From: Cellulophaga baltica
Lineage (GTDB): Bacteria; Bacteroidota; Bacteroidia; Flavobacteriales; Flavobacteriaceae
DNA: 64,000 nucleotides
Assembly: GCF_018861125.1 (NCBI RefSeq)
Contig: NZ_JAHKQN010000015.1
Location: 317,023 to 381,022, forward strand
Reading direction: 5' to 3'
The stretch's first letter is position 1. Every line of letters begins with the position of its first letter. The notes under the pieces are model-generated. The model did not search any database. It saw only the letters and a list, made by a program, of their open reading frames with translations, and was not told the origin of the DNA. A program made the position numbers and the translations under genes. Shown here piece after piece: positions 20,923-29,541 of the stretch.

Positions 20923-22965
20923 CTAAGCAACACTATTCATTTTTTTAGGCACTGTAAAGTAGATGCTAGTACCTTCTGTCACAATACTTTTTGCCCATAT
21001 TTTACCGCCATTACTTTCTACCATTTCTTTACATATTGATAGGCCTAATCCTGTACCTTTTTCATTATTAGTACCATATGTAGATTTCATGTGTTTTCTT
21101 TCAAAGAGGTTTACAAGTGTTTCTTCATCCATTCCAATACCATTATCTGAAATTTGTATTTGAATAGAATCCTCATTTTCTATGGAATTAATTTTAATTT
21201 CACCTTCTATATTCGTAAACTTTATAGCATTACTAATTAGGTTTCTAATTATAATATTTAAATGATTTCTGTCACTAAAACTGATTGTGTTTTTTTGTAT
21301 TTTGTTTATAATATTAATTTCTTTCTTTTTGGCAATAGGCTCTAGTAATGAAATTGTTTTAGTAGCATTTTTATAGATATCAATATTAACCTGTTTAAGT
21401 GTTATTCCTTCCATTTGAGAGTTTGCCCAAACTAATAGGTTATTTAGCATATCTGAAATACCTTGTATATCATGAATTGCTTTGGGGAAAAGTGCTTTAA
21501 ATTCATCAATACTAATCGTTTCATCCAAAGACATTTTCATTAATAAAAGAAAAGAGTTTATAGGTCCTTTTAAATCATGTGCAATAATAGAAAACAACTT
21601 ATTTTTCGTATTGTTTGATTCACTTAGTTCAGCTTCATGCTGTAATAAAACTTTTTGTTTTTGTTGAAGTTCTTTGGTATGTTTTGCTTGTAGTTTACTG
21701 GTTCTGTATAACAAAGCTAATATTAGGCAAACGATTAAAAAAGCTACTATAGCCAAATACACGTAATTTTTTTGCTTTGCAATTGCTTTATTTTGGTCTT
21801 TAATTAGTTGCGCCTTTTCATTTTCATATTTCATTTTACTACGTAAAATACCTAAGCCTTTTTTAAATTTCTCCTTAGATGCTTCTTCATAAAGCTTCTG
21901 ATATTTGGCTTGGTATTCATATGCTAATTTATCGTTACCTTTTTCGTGGTATGTTTTAGAAAGAATTAAGTTAGCTTCTTTAATAACTGAGGAAATATTT
22001 AATTCAGTAGAAATAGCTAAACATTTTAAAGCATATTCTTCAGCTAATTTCAAATTATCAAGTTCTAAATAGCATAAGGATAAATTATTATATACAGATG
22101 TGTAACCAAATTTAAAGTCGATTTCGTCGCACAATTTTTCTGATTTTTTTAGTAATACTAATGCTTCTTTATATTTTTCTTGTTTAATAAGCACGGAGCT
22201 TTTAAATTCATAGGCATGTGACAACCAATCAATACTTTTTTCTTTTTCAAAAAAATCAATACTTTTATCTACCAAACTCAACGCCTCTTCATTGTTACCA
22301 ATTTGTGAGTAAACCGAAGCCATATTTAAAACTGCATATGCGAAAATTTCATCTTTGTTATGCTCCTTATTTAACTTTTTGGCAATTTCTAAAAAAGTTA
22401 ATGATGTTTCAAAATCTCCATTAGTGCTGTATAAGTTTGCTATATTAACATTAAGGCCAACCATCATATCAATATCTTCAATTTCTTTTGCAACAGTTAG
22501 CGCTTCTAAGAACTTTGTTAAAGCTTTTGCTTCTTCACCTTGTAAAGTATAATCAAGAGCCATATTATTTAAAGCAGTAAGTTTTTCTTTACCCAAATTA
22601 TATTGTGTAGCAATCTTTAAAGCATTCATATTATGTTCATATGCTTTTTCTACTTCTCCATTTTCAAAATAATAATAACCGTAGGTTGATAAAGCTCTAC
22701 TTTCTCCAGCATTGTATTTCGTTTTAATACTTAGATCATAAGCTTTCTTTAATAGAATAGAGGTGCTATCAGGATTAGTACGAATTAGATTTTTAGCATG
22801 TGTTAAAAGAGAATCAATATATTCAGGACTTTGAGAATTAAAATTAGAGTTTAATTTTAATTCTCCATTGCTGTTTTCTGTTTGGGAATATACATTTGAA
22901 AAGTTTACAAATAGGATAATAAAAGAAACAAGTAATCCCTTATTTATAAAATAAACACTTTTCAT
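20923..22965 (-). CDS. TPR-domain sensor histidine kinase
   Basis: Membrane histidine kinase with an exported tetratricopeptide sensor. I place the start at the ATG at 22965, 30 bp inside the longest frame (which begins with GTG), because MKSVYFINKGLL leads straight into a good signal peptide ending NVYSQ. About six TPR units fill residues 50-370, followed by a TM helix (NYVYLAIVAFLIVCLILALLY), a coiled coil, the H-box FSIIAHDLKGPINSF and an HATPase domain with NLISNAIKFT, DNGIGM and GTGLGLSICKEM. It has the same architecture as the kinase at 27529-29541. No response regulator is adjacent. Confidence 0.87.
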   Translation of the reverse strand: MKSVYFINKGLLVSFIILFVNFSNVYSQTENSNGELKLNSNFNSQSPEYIDSLLTHAKNLIRTNPDSTSILLKKAYDLSIKTKYNAGESRALSTYGYYYFENGEVEKAYEHNMNALKIATQYNLGKEKLTALNNMALDYTLQGEEAKALTKFLEALTVAKEIEDIDMMVGLNVNIANLYSTNGDFETSLTFLEIAKKLNKEHNKDEIFAYAVLNMASVYSQIGNNEEALSLVDKSIDFFEKEKSIDWLSHAYEFKSSVLIKQEKYKEALVLLKKSEKLCDEIDFKFGYTSVYNNLSLCYLELDNLKLAEEYALKCLAISTELNISSVIKEANLILSKTYHEKGNDKLAYEYQAKYQKLYEEASKEKFKKGLGILRSKMKYENEKAQLIKDQNKAIAKQKNYVYLAIVAFLIVCLILALLYRTSKLQAKHTKELQQKQKVLLQHEAELSESNNTKNKLFSIIAHDLKGPINSFLLLMKMSLDETISIDEFKALFPKAIHDIQGISDMLNNLLVWANSQMEGITLKQVNIDIYKNATKTISLLEPIAKKKEINIINKIQKNTISFSDRNHLNIIIRNLISNAIKFTNIEGEIKINSIENEDSIQIQISDNGIGMDEETLVNLFERKHMKSTYGTNNEKGTGLGLSICKEMVESNGGKIWAKSIVTEGTSIYFTVPKKMNSVA

Positions 22966-23136
22966 TAATTTAATTTTTGCGGAATATATAAACACCTTTT
23001 AAAGGTAAATAATTTTTGTTGTGAAAACAGTTAAAACGTATGTATTTTCTTACTGCAATGCTTTTATGAGTTTGTAGTTGCAAAAAAATATTTTACATTT
23101 TTTTGATTTACAGTTTGTGAATAAATTTTAGAGCAC

Positions 23137-24068: not shown

Positions 24069-24488
24069 AATTGAAATGTTAAATTGATAATTTTGAAATA
24101 TTACGTAACAAATATACTTTTTTATTAAAATTAACTTCTAAAATTTATAGAATAATTAAATAGTTAAGTTTTAAAACTTATTATGCAAATTATTTTAGTT
24201 TTTTTAAGTATTTATATGCTATTAAATTTAACATAAAGTCATTAGTTATTTGTTAAACCAATACTATTTATATCATTTGAAGTTTCATACTTCAAACGTA
24301 TACTTTCAGTACAATCTATACGAATATGTAGATCAAAAGCTATTTATTATCTTTAGCTAATTGATCTACCTTTAAGACTTCACTTTTATTAGCTATTTAT
24401 AATGATAGTTGGTAATTTACTAAAGGTTTTTCTTACTTTCTAGTTTTTTTTGTTGATATTTATTGTATTATATATCAATTGGTTAAAA
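24069..24488. other. Long divergent intergenic region with two strong hairpins
   Basis: This 420-bp gap separates divergent genes. It contains two inverted repeats in tandem: TTTGAAGT-5 nt-ACTTCAAA at 24276-24296, and a longer one at 24328-24369 with outer arms GTAGATCAA / TTGATCTAC and inner arms AGCTA / TAGCT. Neither is followed by a T tract. They may be operators, leader structure for the downstream kinase, or part of a small RNA. The rest is AT-rich without recognisable features. Confidence 0.45.
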
Positions 24489-25775
24489 ATGAGTCGGAAT
24501 TTAAAACAAATTGAAAAAAATAAAATCATTGAAAAACATTTACGCTTTCAAGATTTATTAATAAGTATTTCAACTAAATATATTAATTCAGATTTATCAG
24601 ATATTGATGCAATAATTCAATCATCATTAAAACAGATTGGGGAGTTTGTAGAAGCAGATAGAAGTTATATTTTTTCATATGATTTTGAGAACAAAACTTC
24701 TACTAATACATACGAATGGTGTGCAGCAGGTATTGATGCTGAAATAGATAATTTACAAGAAGTACCCTTAGAATATTTGATGCAGTGGGTTGAAGCTCAT
24801 GAAAAAGGAGAACCTTTATACATTGATGATGTTAGTTTGTTACCTGATGAAGGTGAACGTTGTTTACGTGGTCTTTTAGAACCTCAAGGTATTAAAAGTT
24901 TAATTGCCATTCCTAAAATTAAAAATGATAAACTGATAGGTTTTATTGGTTTTGATTCAGTAAAAAAACTTAAAAAATATTCAGATAATGAGAAAAATAT
25001 TCTTTTTGTTTACTCTAATATGATAGTAAATATTTTGCAACGTAAAGAACAAGAAGAAATTATAATAGAACAAGAGAAAAATAAAGAAGAACTATTACAG
25101 AGTTTATCATTGCAAAACCAAGAATTAAATGACTATGCACATATTGTTTCTCACGATTTAAGAGCACCGCTAATAAATATAAATGCTTTAATTGAATTGT
25201 TTATAAAAGGGAATAAAGGTGTTTTAAGTGAAACAGATTTAATACCATTAAATCATATTGTTTTCACTGTCAAAAAAATGGATTCTTTAATAAAAGGAAT
25301 TCTAGATTACTCTAAAGTAGATAAAATAGAATCAGACGAATCACTTATTGATTTTAATGTAATGTTGGGGGAAATAGCACAAACAGTTCTAATACCAGAA
25401 AATATTGTTTTTTCTATTCAAGGTAATTTACCAAGTATATTTGGTAATGAATTACGGTTTAAACAAGTTTTTCAGAATTTAATTCAGAATGCTATTAAGT
25501 TTTCCGATAAAGAAAAAGGGCTGATAGAAGTTGGTTTTACAGAAAAAGAAGACCACTATGAGTTTTTTGTAAAAGATAATGGTAAAGGTATAAATGCCAG
25601 CCATTTTGATAGTATTTTTCAAAAATTCACCAAACTTGATAGTAAAACGTCTTCTTCAGGCATAGGACTCTCAATTGTGAAGAGAATAATTGACTACTAT
25701 AAGGGTTCTATTTGGGTGACTAGTGAAGTAGGTGTAGGTAGTACATTTTATTTTACATTTTTTAAAAATAGTTAA
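24489..25775 (+). CDS. GAF-domain sensor histidine kinase
   Basis: Soluble sensor kinase. I place the start at the ATG at 24489 (MSRNLKQIEKNK), because the longer frame opens with TTG and adds a sequence with no match to the family start. A GAF domain spans about residues 25-185 (ADRSYIFSYDFENKTSTNTYEWC, IPKIKNDKLIGFIGFDS), followed by a coiled coil, the H-box DYAHIVSHDLRAPLINI and an HATPase domain with NLIQNAIKFS, DNGKGI and SSGIGLSIVKRII. This GAF-HisKA arrangement is common in Flavobacteria. It converges on the transporter gene with only 7 bp between stops and has no adjacent response regulator. Confidence 0.85.
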   Translation: MSRNLKQIEKNKIIEKHLRFQDLLISISTKYINSDLSDIDAIIQSSLKQIGEFVEADRSYIFSYDFENKTSTNTYEWCAAGIDAEIDNLQEVPLEYLMQWVEAHEKGEPLYIDDVSLLPDEGERCLRGLLEPQGIKSLIAIPKIKNDKLIGFIGFDSVKKLKKYSDNEKNILFVYSNMIVNILQRKEQEEIIIEQEKNKEELLQSLSLQNQELNDYAHIVSHDLRAPLININALIELFIKGNKGVLSETDLIPLNHIVFTVKKMDSLIKGILDYSKVDKIESDESLIDFNVMLGEIAQTVLIPENIVFSIQGNLPSIFGNELRFKQVFQNLIQNAIKFSDKEKGLIEVGFTEKEDHYEFFVKDNGKGINASHFDSIFQKFTKLDSKTSSSGIGLSIVKRIIDYYKGSIWVTSEVGVGSTFYFTFFKNS

Positions 25776-25782
25776 ATTTTTG

Positions 25783-27084
25783 TTACTTATTTTTAAATGG
25801 TTTAAAACCAATAAATAGTAATGTACAAATAAGTAATAGAAGTAAATACCAAGTATTGAATACTAAGTCAGTATAATTGATTTGTTCTTTAGAGAAACTT
25901 AAAATCATTAATACTTGAGCTCCGTAAGGTAATAAGCCTTGAAAAACACAGGCAAAAATATCTAATATAGAAGCTGTTTTTTTGTTGTCAAGCTCATATT
26001 CATCATTAATGCTTTTAGCAATCGGACCTGCAATAATAATTGAAACTGTATTATTGGCAATCGCCATATTTATAGTACTTACTAATGTGGCAATACCATA
26101 TTGAGCAGTTTTTTTATTCTTAATAAGCTTTTTAATATTGATCAATATAAAATCAATACCACCATTTTTCTCAACCAAAGCAGCTAAACCACCAGTTAAT
26201 AATGATAGTAAAAATATTTCGGTCATATTTGTGAAACCAGTGTAGGCTATTCTGCTAGATTCAATTAAGGTAAAATCACCGTAAGCAAGTCCTAAACCTA
26301 CAGCTGCTATAGCACCTAAAAGTAATGTTACAAATACATTTATACCTACAATTGAAAGTACAATTACTAATACATAAGGTACAATTTTTACAATAGAATA
26401 GGTGTATTCAACAGTGGTTGCGTCTGAAGATTTTAAACCAAAACCTTGAAAAATTAGTATTGCAATAGTTAGTAATGCGGCAGGAACTGCAATTTTTATA
26501 TTCTGCTTAAACTTATCACTCATTTTACAGCCTAACGTTTGCGTTGCGGCTATTGTTGTATCTGAAATTACCGATAAGTTATCACCAAACATGCTACCAC
26601 CCAATAAAGCACCACATAAAATGGCTAAATCGGCACTACTTTTATCAGCAAAACTAACAACGATAGGAGCAAGAGCTACAATAGCTCCAACAGATGTACC
26701 TGTTGATAATGATAAAAAACCTGCAATAATAAAAATACCTACATATATGTATTGAATAGCAATGTAATCTAAGCCCAAATTTACAATAGCATCGACACTA
26801 CCAGTTTCTTTGGTTATAGCGGCAAATGCCCCAGCCAGTAAATAGATGAGACACATGGTTAATATTTTATCATCACCACACCCTTTTAATAATGTTGCTA
26901 TTTTAGAATTTATAGATTGTTTAAACATTAAAAATGCTACGGTAATACCTATAATTACAGCAATTGGTGCAGGTAAAGCATAAAAATCATTTTGATAGAT
27001 TCCGACACCCAAAAAAGTAAATACAAAAACAAAAAAGGGAATTAATGCAGAAAATTTAGGGGTGATTTTAAGTGTACTAGCCAT
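25783..27084 (-). CDS. NhaC-family transporter, probable methionine carrier (MetT-like)
   Basis: Inner-membrane transporter of the Na+/H+ antiporter NhaC family, 433 residues with about 11-12 membrane segments. Family signatures are LSTGTSVGAIVALAP near 128 and CGALLGGSMFGDNLSVISDTTIAATQTLGC near 155, and IANNTVSIIIAGPIAKSI in the second half. The family contains genuine sodium antiporters and also MetT, a predicted methionine transporter controlled by SAM riboswitches in other bacteria. The leader on this strand contains a compact SAM-I/IV-like aptamer (27141-27231), which makes methionine import the better inference here than sodium export. Substrate remains unproven. Confidence 0.82.
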   Translation of the reverse strand: MASTLKITPKFSALIPFFVFVFTFLGVGIYQNDFYALPAPIAVIIGITVAFLMFKQSINSKIATLLKGCGDDKILTMCLIYLLAGAFAAITKETGSVDAIVNLGLDYIAIQYIYVGIFIIAGFLSLSTGTSVGAIVALAPIVVSFADKSSADLAILCGALLGGSMFGDNLSVISDTTIAATQTLGCKMSDKFKQNIKIAVPAALLTIAILIFQGFGLKSSDATTVEYTYSIVKIVPYVLVIVLSIVGINVFVTLLLGAIAAVGLGLAYGDFTLIESSRIAYTGFTNMTEIFLLSLLTGGLAALVEKNGGIDFILINIKKLIKNKKTAQYGIATLVSTINMAIANNTVSIIIAGPIAKSINDEYELDNKKTASILDIFACVFQGLLPYGAQVLMILSFSKEQINYTDLVFNTWYLLLLLICTLLFIGFKPFKNK

Positions 27085-27140
27085 TTTAATTTATTCAGTT
27101 TTAAAAAGAGCATAGTAAAGTAAATATGTAGAAGTATGCG

Positions 27141-27231
27141 TTAACATTTGTTCCAAATACTTGGCTTATCTATTTAGCACCTTACTCGTTAATGTAGGTT
27201 GCTATCTCTTTTTTGTGAGATTCTTGATAAT
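27141..27231 (-). ncRNA. SAM-I/IV-like riboswitch before the NhaC/MetT gene
   Basis: Read on the minus strand, the leader contains the core of the SAM-I clan in order. P1 is TTATC (27226-27230) pairing with GATAA (27166-27170). After AAGA comes a short P2 (ATCTC / GAGAT). Then AGCAACC, P3 CCTAC / GTAAGG with the bulged A typical of SAM-I, and GGTGCTAAAT just before P1 closes. SAM-I's P4 is absent. After P1 comes a hairpin CCAA-GTAT-TTGG, and then GTTAA (27141-27145), which can pair with the TTAAC of the P3 loop, the pseudoknot topology of SAM-IV and SAM-I/IV RNAs. The aptamer ends about 57 nt before the ATG. Confidence 0.72.
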
Positions 27232-27528
27232 TATTTAAGGCGGCAAAAGTACTATATAAAACTGCTTGGACTACCTTTACAGACGTTAATTTCGATATAA
27301 AGTTTATTTAAATAGCTCATTTGGTTTTCAATAAAGCTATTTTTTAGATTAAAATGAATAACTTAATAGCTAAGTAAACTCTTTTTACTTTTTCTAAATT
27401 TTATAATATTTATTTTTTGTAGGAAAATAAAACAAAATTTATTCTGTTTTATAGTAGTTATATAATATTCAGAACTTTTTCATTTTAAATAAATGAGCAT
27501 AAATTTTATTAATGTAGTAGTAAAAATA
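27232..27528. other. Divergent intergenic region upstream of the TPR kinase
   Basis: AT-rich spacer between the riboswitch on the minus strand and the TPR kinase on the plus strand. I see no clear promoter consensus, repeat or small ORF. The 5' end of the transporter transcript must lie in its left part. Confidence 0.4.
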
Positions 27529-29541
27529 ATGTGTAAAATACTTTTAATTAGTATTTTATGTGTGTGTTCTTTACAATCAGTTCAAGCTCAACAAACTGTT
27601 ATTGATAGTTTGTCAAACAAATTATCTAGTTTAAGAAATACTGCTAATTTCTTTGAAACTGATACGGTGTATATTAACACCTTAATAAAATATGGGTCTA
27701 AACATCGTCATATTAATAAAGACACTCTTATGTCTGTTGCAAAAAAAGTTTTAGAACTGAGTGAAAAAAGTAATTATGATTTTGGAGTTATTAGTTCATA
27801 CGAACTTCAGGGTCATTTTTATTCGCAACAAGATAAAGACAGTAAAGGCATTTTCTATTATGACAAAGCTTTAGAAGTTTACGAGCAGACTTCAAATAAA
27901 GTTCCGAAACAAAAATTATATATACTAAACGCTAAAGCTCAAGAATATGAATACTTGGGCGAATATGCAGAATCATTAAATAGTTTACTGCAAGGTATTG
28001 ATTTAGCAACCAAACATAATTACAATTATGACCTTACATTATTAAACCAAAATATTGCATACTTATATATTTCTCAAAAATATTATGAACAAGGTTTAGA
28101 GTATTATGAAAATTCAATTCTTATAAACGAAAACCTCGGAGATGAACTTTTTAAAGCGGAAACTTTTAGTTGTGTGGCAGATATCTATTTTAAAATGGAT
28201 AGGTTAGAAGAAGCTATGATTAATGTGGAGAGAAGTATTCCTGTTTTTCGAAAATATCAAAGTTTAAAATGGTTAGCTTATTCGTATGATGTTAAAGGAA
28301 AAATTTATTTAAAACAAGAAAAATTTAATACAGCTTTAGAATGGTTTTTTAAAAGTATGTTGCTTCATAATAAAATTGATGATGGAACGGCTAAAATTGA
28401 TGTTATTAACGGAATAGCACAAGCTTATTTATTATTAAAAAAGGATAGTTTAGCAATTGAAAATGCTTTAAATGCTTATTCAACTTCTAAAAATATAAAT
28501 TATATTAAAGGAGAAATAACTAGTACAAATATACTATATAAACTTTTTCAGTTAAATAATAATTTTGAGCAAGCCCTTTGGTACCGAGACTTAAATATTA
28601 AACTTTCAGATTCTCTATATAGAAATGCAAATAAAAATGGATTAGAGCTTTTAAAAGTTAATCTAGATTACAAAAATGAAAAGGCTTTATTTTTGCGAGA
28701 AAATGAAAAAGCACTGGCAAAAAAGAGTTTAGTTATATATATAATATTAACCCTACTTATAATACTTGGTTGTATACTTTTTGTTATCAAAAGAAATAAA
28801 AATAAGTACAAACGTTTAAATAAAGTATTAAAACAAAATAGGGAAGAGCTGACCGAGATAAATAATACGAAGAATAAACTTTTTTCAATTGTAGGGCATG
28901 ACCTAAGAGGGCCTATAGGGTCATTGAAAAGTTTGCTCAATCTGTATTCTGAAAAAATGTTAAGCAAGAGTGAGTTAGATGATTTTATTCCAAAAATAGA
29001 AAATAATGTAGATTCTATTTATTTTACCTTAAATAACTTACTCGATTGGGGTAATTCTCAAATGAATGGTTCTTATATAGAGCCTACAAATGTAACGGTA
29101 ACCAACCTAGTAGAAAGTTCAATAAAATTGTTAACCCCGGCTATAGAAAAAAAAGTAATTAAGGTTAATAATAATATTTCTGAAGATGTTGTTGTTTGGG
29201 CAGATAATGATCAAACTGAAGTCGTTATAAGAAACTTACTAAGCAATGCTACAAAATTTACCCCCGAAAAGGGTGAAATATCATTTAATGCAATTGATGA
29301 TGGTAATTTTTATAAAATTGAAATAAAAGATTCAGGTGTAGGTATGACGAAAGAAATACAAGAAAAAATATTTTTAATGACTTCAAATATTACCACATAC
29401 GGCACCAATAATGAAAAAGGTACTGGCTTAGGCTTAACCTTGTGTAAAGAGATGATTGAAAAAAACTCAGGTACAATAGGAGTCAAAAGTGTAGTAGGAG
29501 AAGGAACAACATTTTATTTTATGCTACCTAAACCAGCCTAA
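27529..29541 (+). CDS. TPR-domain sensor histidine kinase
   Basis: Paralogue in architecture of the kinase at 20923-22965. The start at 27529 is preferred over the in-frame ATG 36 bp upstream (27493) because MCKILLISILCVCSLQSVQAQQ is then a clean signal peptide. About six TPR units follow, then a TM helix (SLVIYIILTLLIILGCILFVI), a coiled coil, the H-box FSIVGHDLRGPIGSLKSL, and an HATPase domain with NLLSNATKFT, DSGVGM and GTGLGLTLCKEM. Such kinases typically sense a periplasmic or membrane-associated partner through the TPRs. It has its own terminator and no neighbouring response regulator. Confidence 0.87.
   Translation: MCKILLISILCVCSLQSVQAQQTVIDSLSNKLSSLRNTANFFETDTVYINTLIKYGSKHRHINKDTLMSVAKKVLELSEKSNYDFGVISSYELQGHFYSQQDKDSKGIFYYDKALEVYEQTSNKVPKQKLYILNAKAQEYEYLGEYAESLNSLLQGIDLATKHNYNYDLTLLNQNIAYLYISQKYYEQGLEYYENSILINENLGDELFKAETFSCVADIYFKMDRLEEAMINVERSIPVFRKYQSLKWLAYSYDVKGKIYLKQEKFNTALEWFFKSMLLHNKIDDGTAKIDVINGIAQAYLLLKKDSLAIENALNAYSTSKNINYIKGEITSTNILYKLFQLNNNFEQALWYRDLNIKLSDSLYRNANKNGLELLKVNLDYKNEKALFLRENEKALAKKSLVIYIILTLLIILGCILFVIKRNKNKYKRLNKVLKQNREELTEINNTKNKLFSIVGHDLRGPIGSLKSLLNLYSEKMLSKSELDDFIPKIENNVDSIYFTLNNLLDWGNSQMNGSYIEPTNVTVTNLVESSIKLLTPAIEKKVIKVNNNISEDVVVWADNDQTEVVIRNLLSNATKFTPEKGEISFNAIDDGNFYKIEIKDSGVGMTKEIQEKIFLMTSNITTYGTNNEKGTGLGLTLCKEMIEKNSGTIGVKSVVGEGTTFYFMLPKPA

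Follow-up and report, generated by a model that had tools for sequence, protein, structure and literature searches.

Translational riboswitches are usually explained by the hiding of a Shine-Dalgarno (SD) sequence. SAM-I/IV variant RNAs, which were distinguished in 2010 by a P2 without an internal loop (Weinberg 2010, PMC2864571), form the Rfam family RF01725, for which a structure is available (4L81), and the crystallised member possesses a P4 (PMC6890682). Genes for MetT-type transporters are under SAM-linked control in several bacteria: metT of Vibrio cholerae and Shewanella is repressed by MetJ (PMC3228920), and metT of Clostridium perfringens sits behind an S-box (PMC2940859). Bacteroidota are described as not using SD pairing, with structure at the start codon lowering initiation (PMC6847099; PMC9976891), and structure near the start codon was found to reduce initiation in SD-less Flavobacterium (PMC6847099).

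We analyzed a window of 64 kb, which is the whole stretch of Cellulophaga baltica DNA under study, and compared one of its leader RNAs with these systems. A cmscan of the whole window yielded a sole gathering-level Rfam match, RF01725 at 27137–27235 on the minus strand, which covered the covariance model at full length (1–99 of 99) with 58.7 bits (gathering threshold 41.1, E = 4.2e-7). The SAM-I model RF00162 reached 26.0 bits at the same locus, below its gathering threshold of 44.4. The SAM-I/IV-like riboswitch that had been proposed by an earlier sequence-only reading was therefore borne out, as the covariance-model check came back significant for RF01725 and below the cut-off for RF00162. 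That reading had located the RNA correctly, although the extent it gave (27141–27231) was a few bases shorter than the model match. The RNA at 27137–27235 is confirmed as an ordinary SAM-I/IV aptamer of a known family, for which SAM binding is predicted.

P1, P2, AGCAACC, P3, the core, the following hairpin and the complementarity of GTTAA to the P3 loop were each found where the sequence-only reading had placed them, all on the minus strand. In the covariance-model alignment, P1 is formed by the 5' strand TTATC (27226–27230) and the 3' strand GATAA (27166–27170), and P2 by ATCTC (AUCUC, 27217–27221) and GAGAT (GAGAU, 27204–27208). P2 is a single 5-bp hairpin with an A-rich loop and without an internal loop. 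The SAM core reads GCAACC...GGTGCTAA, with the AGCAACC motif present on the minus strand and the core element GGTGCTAAAT at 27172–27181. The P3 hairpin (27180–27198) pairs CCTAC (27194–27198) with GTA-A-AGG (27180–27185) and has a bulged A at 27183. Its loop carries the pseudoknot strand TTAAC (UUAAC, 27188–27192), to which the 3' strand GTTAA (GUUAA, 27141–27145) is complementary. The alignment also placed a hairpin 3' of P1, CCAAGTATTTGG (CCAAGUAUUUGG, 27153–27164), which is named P5 here after the SAM-IV structure (PMC6890682). The RNA had previously been read as a compact, minimal variant, and this view was rejected because a short P2 and an absent P4 are the consensus of RF01725 itself; the missing P4 is thus a departure from the crystallised member and not from the family.

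The aptamer was strongly conserved among orthologous leaders. In 55 aligned leaders, the aptamer pairs including the pseudoknot formed in 99.1% of alignment cells, compared to 16–44% in slid registers. P1 was paired in 98% of cells, the hairpin 3' of P1 in 98.6%, and the 4-bp core of the pseudoknot, which was almost invariant, in 99.5%. Little covariation was seen in the aptamer because its conservation is very high; P3 of the window has a compensatory change of its own, with A-U here and G-C in relatives. RF01725 was present in 14 of 40 related genomes, which were exactly the genomes with a close transporter orthologue (58–100% identity), and in none of the 26 other relatives, which contained only distant paralogues (best 38%) or no homologue. 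The aptamer was also found on almost every Flavobacteriaceae orthologue leader fetched from named genomes (Zobellia, Maribacter, Lacinutrix, Olleya, Formosa, Winogradskyella, Arenibacter, and others), so the conservation of the core in orthologous leaders, on which the sequence-only reading had made its proposal depend, was observed. No SAM riboswitch was detected at gathering level before the distant homologues of Bacteroidales, Desulfovibrio, Elusimicrobiales, and others (L105–L124), nor before those of Vibrio, Aeromonas, Fusobacterium, Enterococcus, and Aureibacter.

The gene downstream of the aptamer (25783–27084, minus strand) encodes a MetT-like NhaC-superfamily transporter of 433 aa. 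Its match to PF03553 (E = 7.9e-24, 84.9 bits against a cut-off of 23) upheld the earlier family assignment at the superfamily level. The cut-off of the NhaC Na+/H+ antiporter equivalog TIGR00931 was not reached (80.4 against 370 bits), and neither was that of the NCBIfam ArcD equivalog. A sequence search of solved structures found no solved relative of the transporter. Vibrio homologues shared 43–44% identity with the transporter and had tandem metboxes upstream (AGACGTCTAGACGTTG for L145 and GGACGTCTAGACTGTT for L146), by which the L145 gene is putatively metT. The L145 protein found the window gene as its best match in the source genome (46% identity, E = 1.2e-98; next match 1e-13), and the two proteins are reciprocal best matches. 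Since its reciprocal best match in Vibrio has tandem MetJ boxes, the transporter is likely to be a methionine importer (MetT). The MetT-like function suggested in the sequence-only reading is supported by this match together with the published regulation of MetT.

It is improbable that the substrate is instead another sulfur compound or a SAM-related metabolite, or that the protein is a Na+/H+ antiporter under SAM control. Substrates vary among members of the NhaC superfamily, and as neither equivalog cut-off was reached, the family name by itself reveals little. However, the reciprocal best match is to a metbox-controlled homologue, with the next paralogue at 1e-13, and the transporter group is found behind three kinds of SAM-linked regulator (this study; PMC3228920, PMC2940859).

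A TAnnTTTG motif (TACTTTTG, 27244–27251, minus strand), which we take to be the Bacteroidota -7 promoter element, is located 13 nt upstream of P1, and the open reading frame starts 146 nt past the start of P1. Among 68 orthologous leaders, 63 had the motif within 45 nt 5' of P1, while ~2.5 were expected from the local background, and its spacing to P1 was mostly fixed. The position of the motif just upstream of P1 indicates that the leader probably starts just before the aptamer. The transporter gene is flanked by sensor histidine kinase genes at 20923–22995 (minus), 24450–25775 (plus), and 27493–29541 (plus), the last of which is divergent from the riboswitch leader.

A likely switching segment between the aptamer and the AUG was overlooked in the sequence-only reading, which went no further than the aptamer. 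This pyrimidine-rich segment (ACUAUGCUCUUUUUAA, 27101–27116, minus strand), ~16 nt upstream of the AUG, is complementary to both 27202–27213 and 27076–27089 and is a putative anti-aptamer and start-codon sequestor. Its aptamer partner AAAAAGAGAUAG (27202–27213, minus strand) runs from the P2 loop through the P2 3' strand into the first nucleotides of J2/3. The typical segment across leaders is GCUAUUUCCUUUUU, whose complement AAAAAGGAGAUAGC likewise spans the A-rich loop and the 3' strand of P2 together with the beginning of J2/3.

In an RNAduplex comparison with 200 dinucleotide shuffles per leader, 49 of 68 leaders had a pairing between segment and aptamer that outdid 95% or more of the shuffles (median z = -3.1 across leaders). 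The resulting alternative helix had up to 17 pairs and usually ended 13–20 nt 5' of the AUG in the 68 leaders. It was paired in 85.2% of alignment cells, compared to 51–73% when slid by 1–3 columns. Two-sided changes were present in 16 cells, while shuffled alignments had 5.1 (0 of 500 as high), and there were 17 further pair types. One P2-loop position, which is unpaired in the aptamer, was occupied by G opposite a downstream C in 37 leaders and by A opposite U in seven. Leaders paired better with their own partners than with swapped ones (z = -7.2), also with 17 cluster representatives (z = -3.3, 5 of 5000). Transcripts ending 7 nt short of the AUG, which mimic a state in which the start codon is yet unmade, had on average 9.4 alternative pairs compared to 2.15 with shuffled segments across the 68 leaders, with folding energies computed without the pseudoknot or SAM, and 60 of the 68 had at least five. 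The window RNA cut at this point had 5.7 alternative pairs, compared to 0.4 with shuffled segments (7 of 400). For the window alone, 96 of 2000 shuffles paired as well with the aptamer, which is marginal, as window-only support for either pairing of the segment is at p of about 0.02–0.05. Taken across 55–68 leaders, these comparisons strongly support a conserved pairing between segment and aptamer.

The other predicted partner of the segment is the translation-initiation region including the AUG (27076–27089, minus strand). Start regions (e.g., GAAAUGGC) resemble the aptamer strand GAGAUAGC. When the aptamer pairs were imposed on the fold, the accessibility of positions -15 to +15 fell in 45 of 68 leaders and rose in four. 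The probability that the AUG is paired in the local fold had a mean of 0.74, which dropped to 0.57 when the segment was shuffled, and the top 5% was reached by 21 of the 68 leaders; AUG pairing in single leaders had a median z of -0.9 and was mostly not significant. For the window alone, 84 of 2000 shuffles paired as well with the start region, which is again marginal, and pyrimidine-rich segments easily pair with A-rich start regions. Swapping start regions among leaders gave z = -4.7. Because this value falls to -1.9 (149 of 5000) when leaders are collapsed to cluster representatives, we regard the predicted pairing of the segment with the start codon as moderately supported.

Both pairing arms were best in the Maribacter/Lacinutrix/Olleya/C. 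baltica-type leaders, and the platform was weaker or different in the Winogradskyella-, C. fucicola-, and Arenibacter-type leaders. In the most diverged leader, L014, the shuffle test identified no significant platform. In the Cellulophaga fucicola/Winogradskyella-type leaders, the spacing from promoter to P1 was apparently ~9 nt and not 13–15 nt (L001, L010, L011, L013, L076–L082, L088), and in some leaders of this type the long segment apparently gives way to a small hairpin immediately 5' of the AUG. These leaders may represent a second platform type, as their sequences suggest.

We propose that the SAM-I/IV riboswitch probably lowers translation of the MetT-type importer at high SAM through an exchange of the segment between P2 and the AUG. 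Without SAM, the segment would be transcribed ahead of the start codon and would capture the P2 strand of the aptamer, so that P2 is broken, the AUG is left open, and the gene is on. With SAM, P1, P2, P3, and the pseudoknot would lock and set the segment free, and the freed segment would cover the AUG region and turn the gene off. The start codon itself, and not an SD site, would be hidden, since Bacteroidota initiate without SD pairing. This OFF logic is expected for a methionine importer and is supported by the same transporter family being repressed via MetJ elsewhere and lying behind an S-box in C. perfringens. For the SAM-I/IV RNAs of Flavobacteriaceae in general, we lean somewhat towards an SD-free three-way exchange, in which the segment would pair either with the aptamer, at the joining core and the 3' strand of P2, or with the AUG, and in which the switching helix would be P2 and not P1 or the pseudoknot.

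A different OFF switch could act via P1 or via the P3-loop pseudoknot, with the complementary segment being incidental or having another role. SAM-I RNAs usually switch through the P1 strand, Trausch 2014 reportedly assigned the SAM-I/IV pseudoknot a part in regulation, and the pseudoknot strand was almost invariant in our leaders. However, the segment shows covariation with the P2 strand, its distance to the AUG is near-constant in most leaders, and the pseudoknot strand of the window is more than 50 nt from the AUG, which together make a P1- or pseudoknot-based switch unlikely. Premature termination, in which the alternative helix and a U-rich tail would form an intrinsic terminator without SAM and thus an ON switch, is less likely still and was rejected: a U-rich stretch ends the alternative helix in many leaders including that of the window, but no terminator-like site was found within 26900–27500, the helix would enclose a loop of ~85 nt, the U-run has its partner in the A-rich loop of P2 and several leaders do not keep it as a run of U, and ON logic opposes the known repression of metT (PMC3228920, PMC2940859).

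Another SAM riboswitch, of the SAM-I family, was found elsewhere in the source genome (L125:5780–5899; G000:C26:226279–226398). As it precedes a gene whose start matches a PLP enzyme family of Cys/Met metabolism, this genome probably employs two families of SAM riboswitch for the same metabolism. Other Flavobacteriaceae RNAs scoring with RF01725 were also identified (L132:1248–1353, L132:3074–3192, L133:2549–2649, L023, L044, L027, L039, L138). In most of them a core pair was flipped (CCAACC...GGTGG), and in one case two copies were 1.8 kb apart. The genes behind them are not methionine genes but small ones that are unknown or possibly belong to mobile elements, and Pfam gave no convincing name for them. 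The RF01725 loci inspected elsewhere in the family are uninformative on ON or OFF logic, because they stand before the same transporter or before these unrelated small or possibly mobile-element genes.

The aptamer and the idea of a sequestor and anti-sequestor are already known, and what seems to be new is this variant of the platform. No description of a P2-directed, start-codon-covering SAM-I/IV platform was found in the literature searched, Trausch 2014 being outside that search. A conserved start-codon-hiding platform with compensatory changes in multiple species would be a concrete model for a phylum without SD pairing. MetT-type transporters would gain one more kind of SAM sensor, which strengthens their assignment as methionine importers.

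Compared to MetT of Vibrio, Shewanella, and Firmicutes, the window protein has in common the NhaC superfamily, SAM-linked regulation, and, for Vibrio, the reciprocal best match, whereas those transporters are under MetJ or S-boxes and the transport role of the window protein is predicted. The RNA shares the ligand-binding core and the clan with SAM-I (RF00162), but it has a pseudoknot and is without the P2 internal loop, kink-turn, and P4. With SAM-IV (RF00634) it shares the P5 hairpin and the pseudoknot between P3 loop and 3' tail (PK-2), but not P2b and PK-1, which were described for SAM-IV (PMC6890682). The closest likeness is to SAM-I/IV, with which it shares P1, P2 without an internal loop, P3 with its bulged A, the SAM core, the P5-like hairpin, and the pseudoknot between P3 loop and tail. 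Within that family the window RNA is very A/U-rich, and it differs from the crystallised member in being without P4, as is the Rfam consensus.
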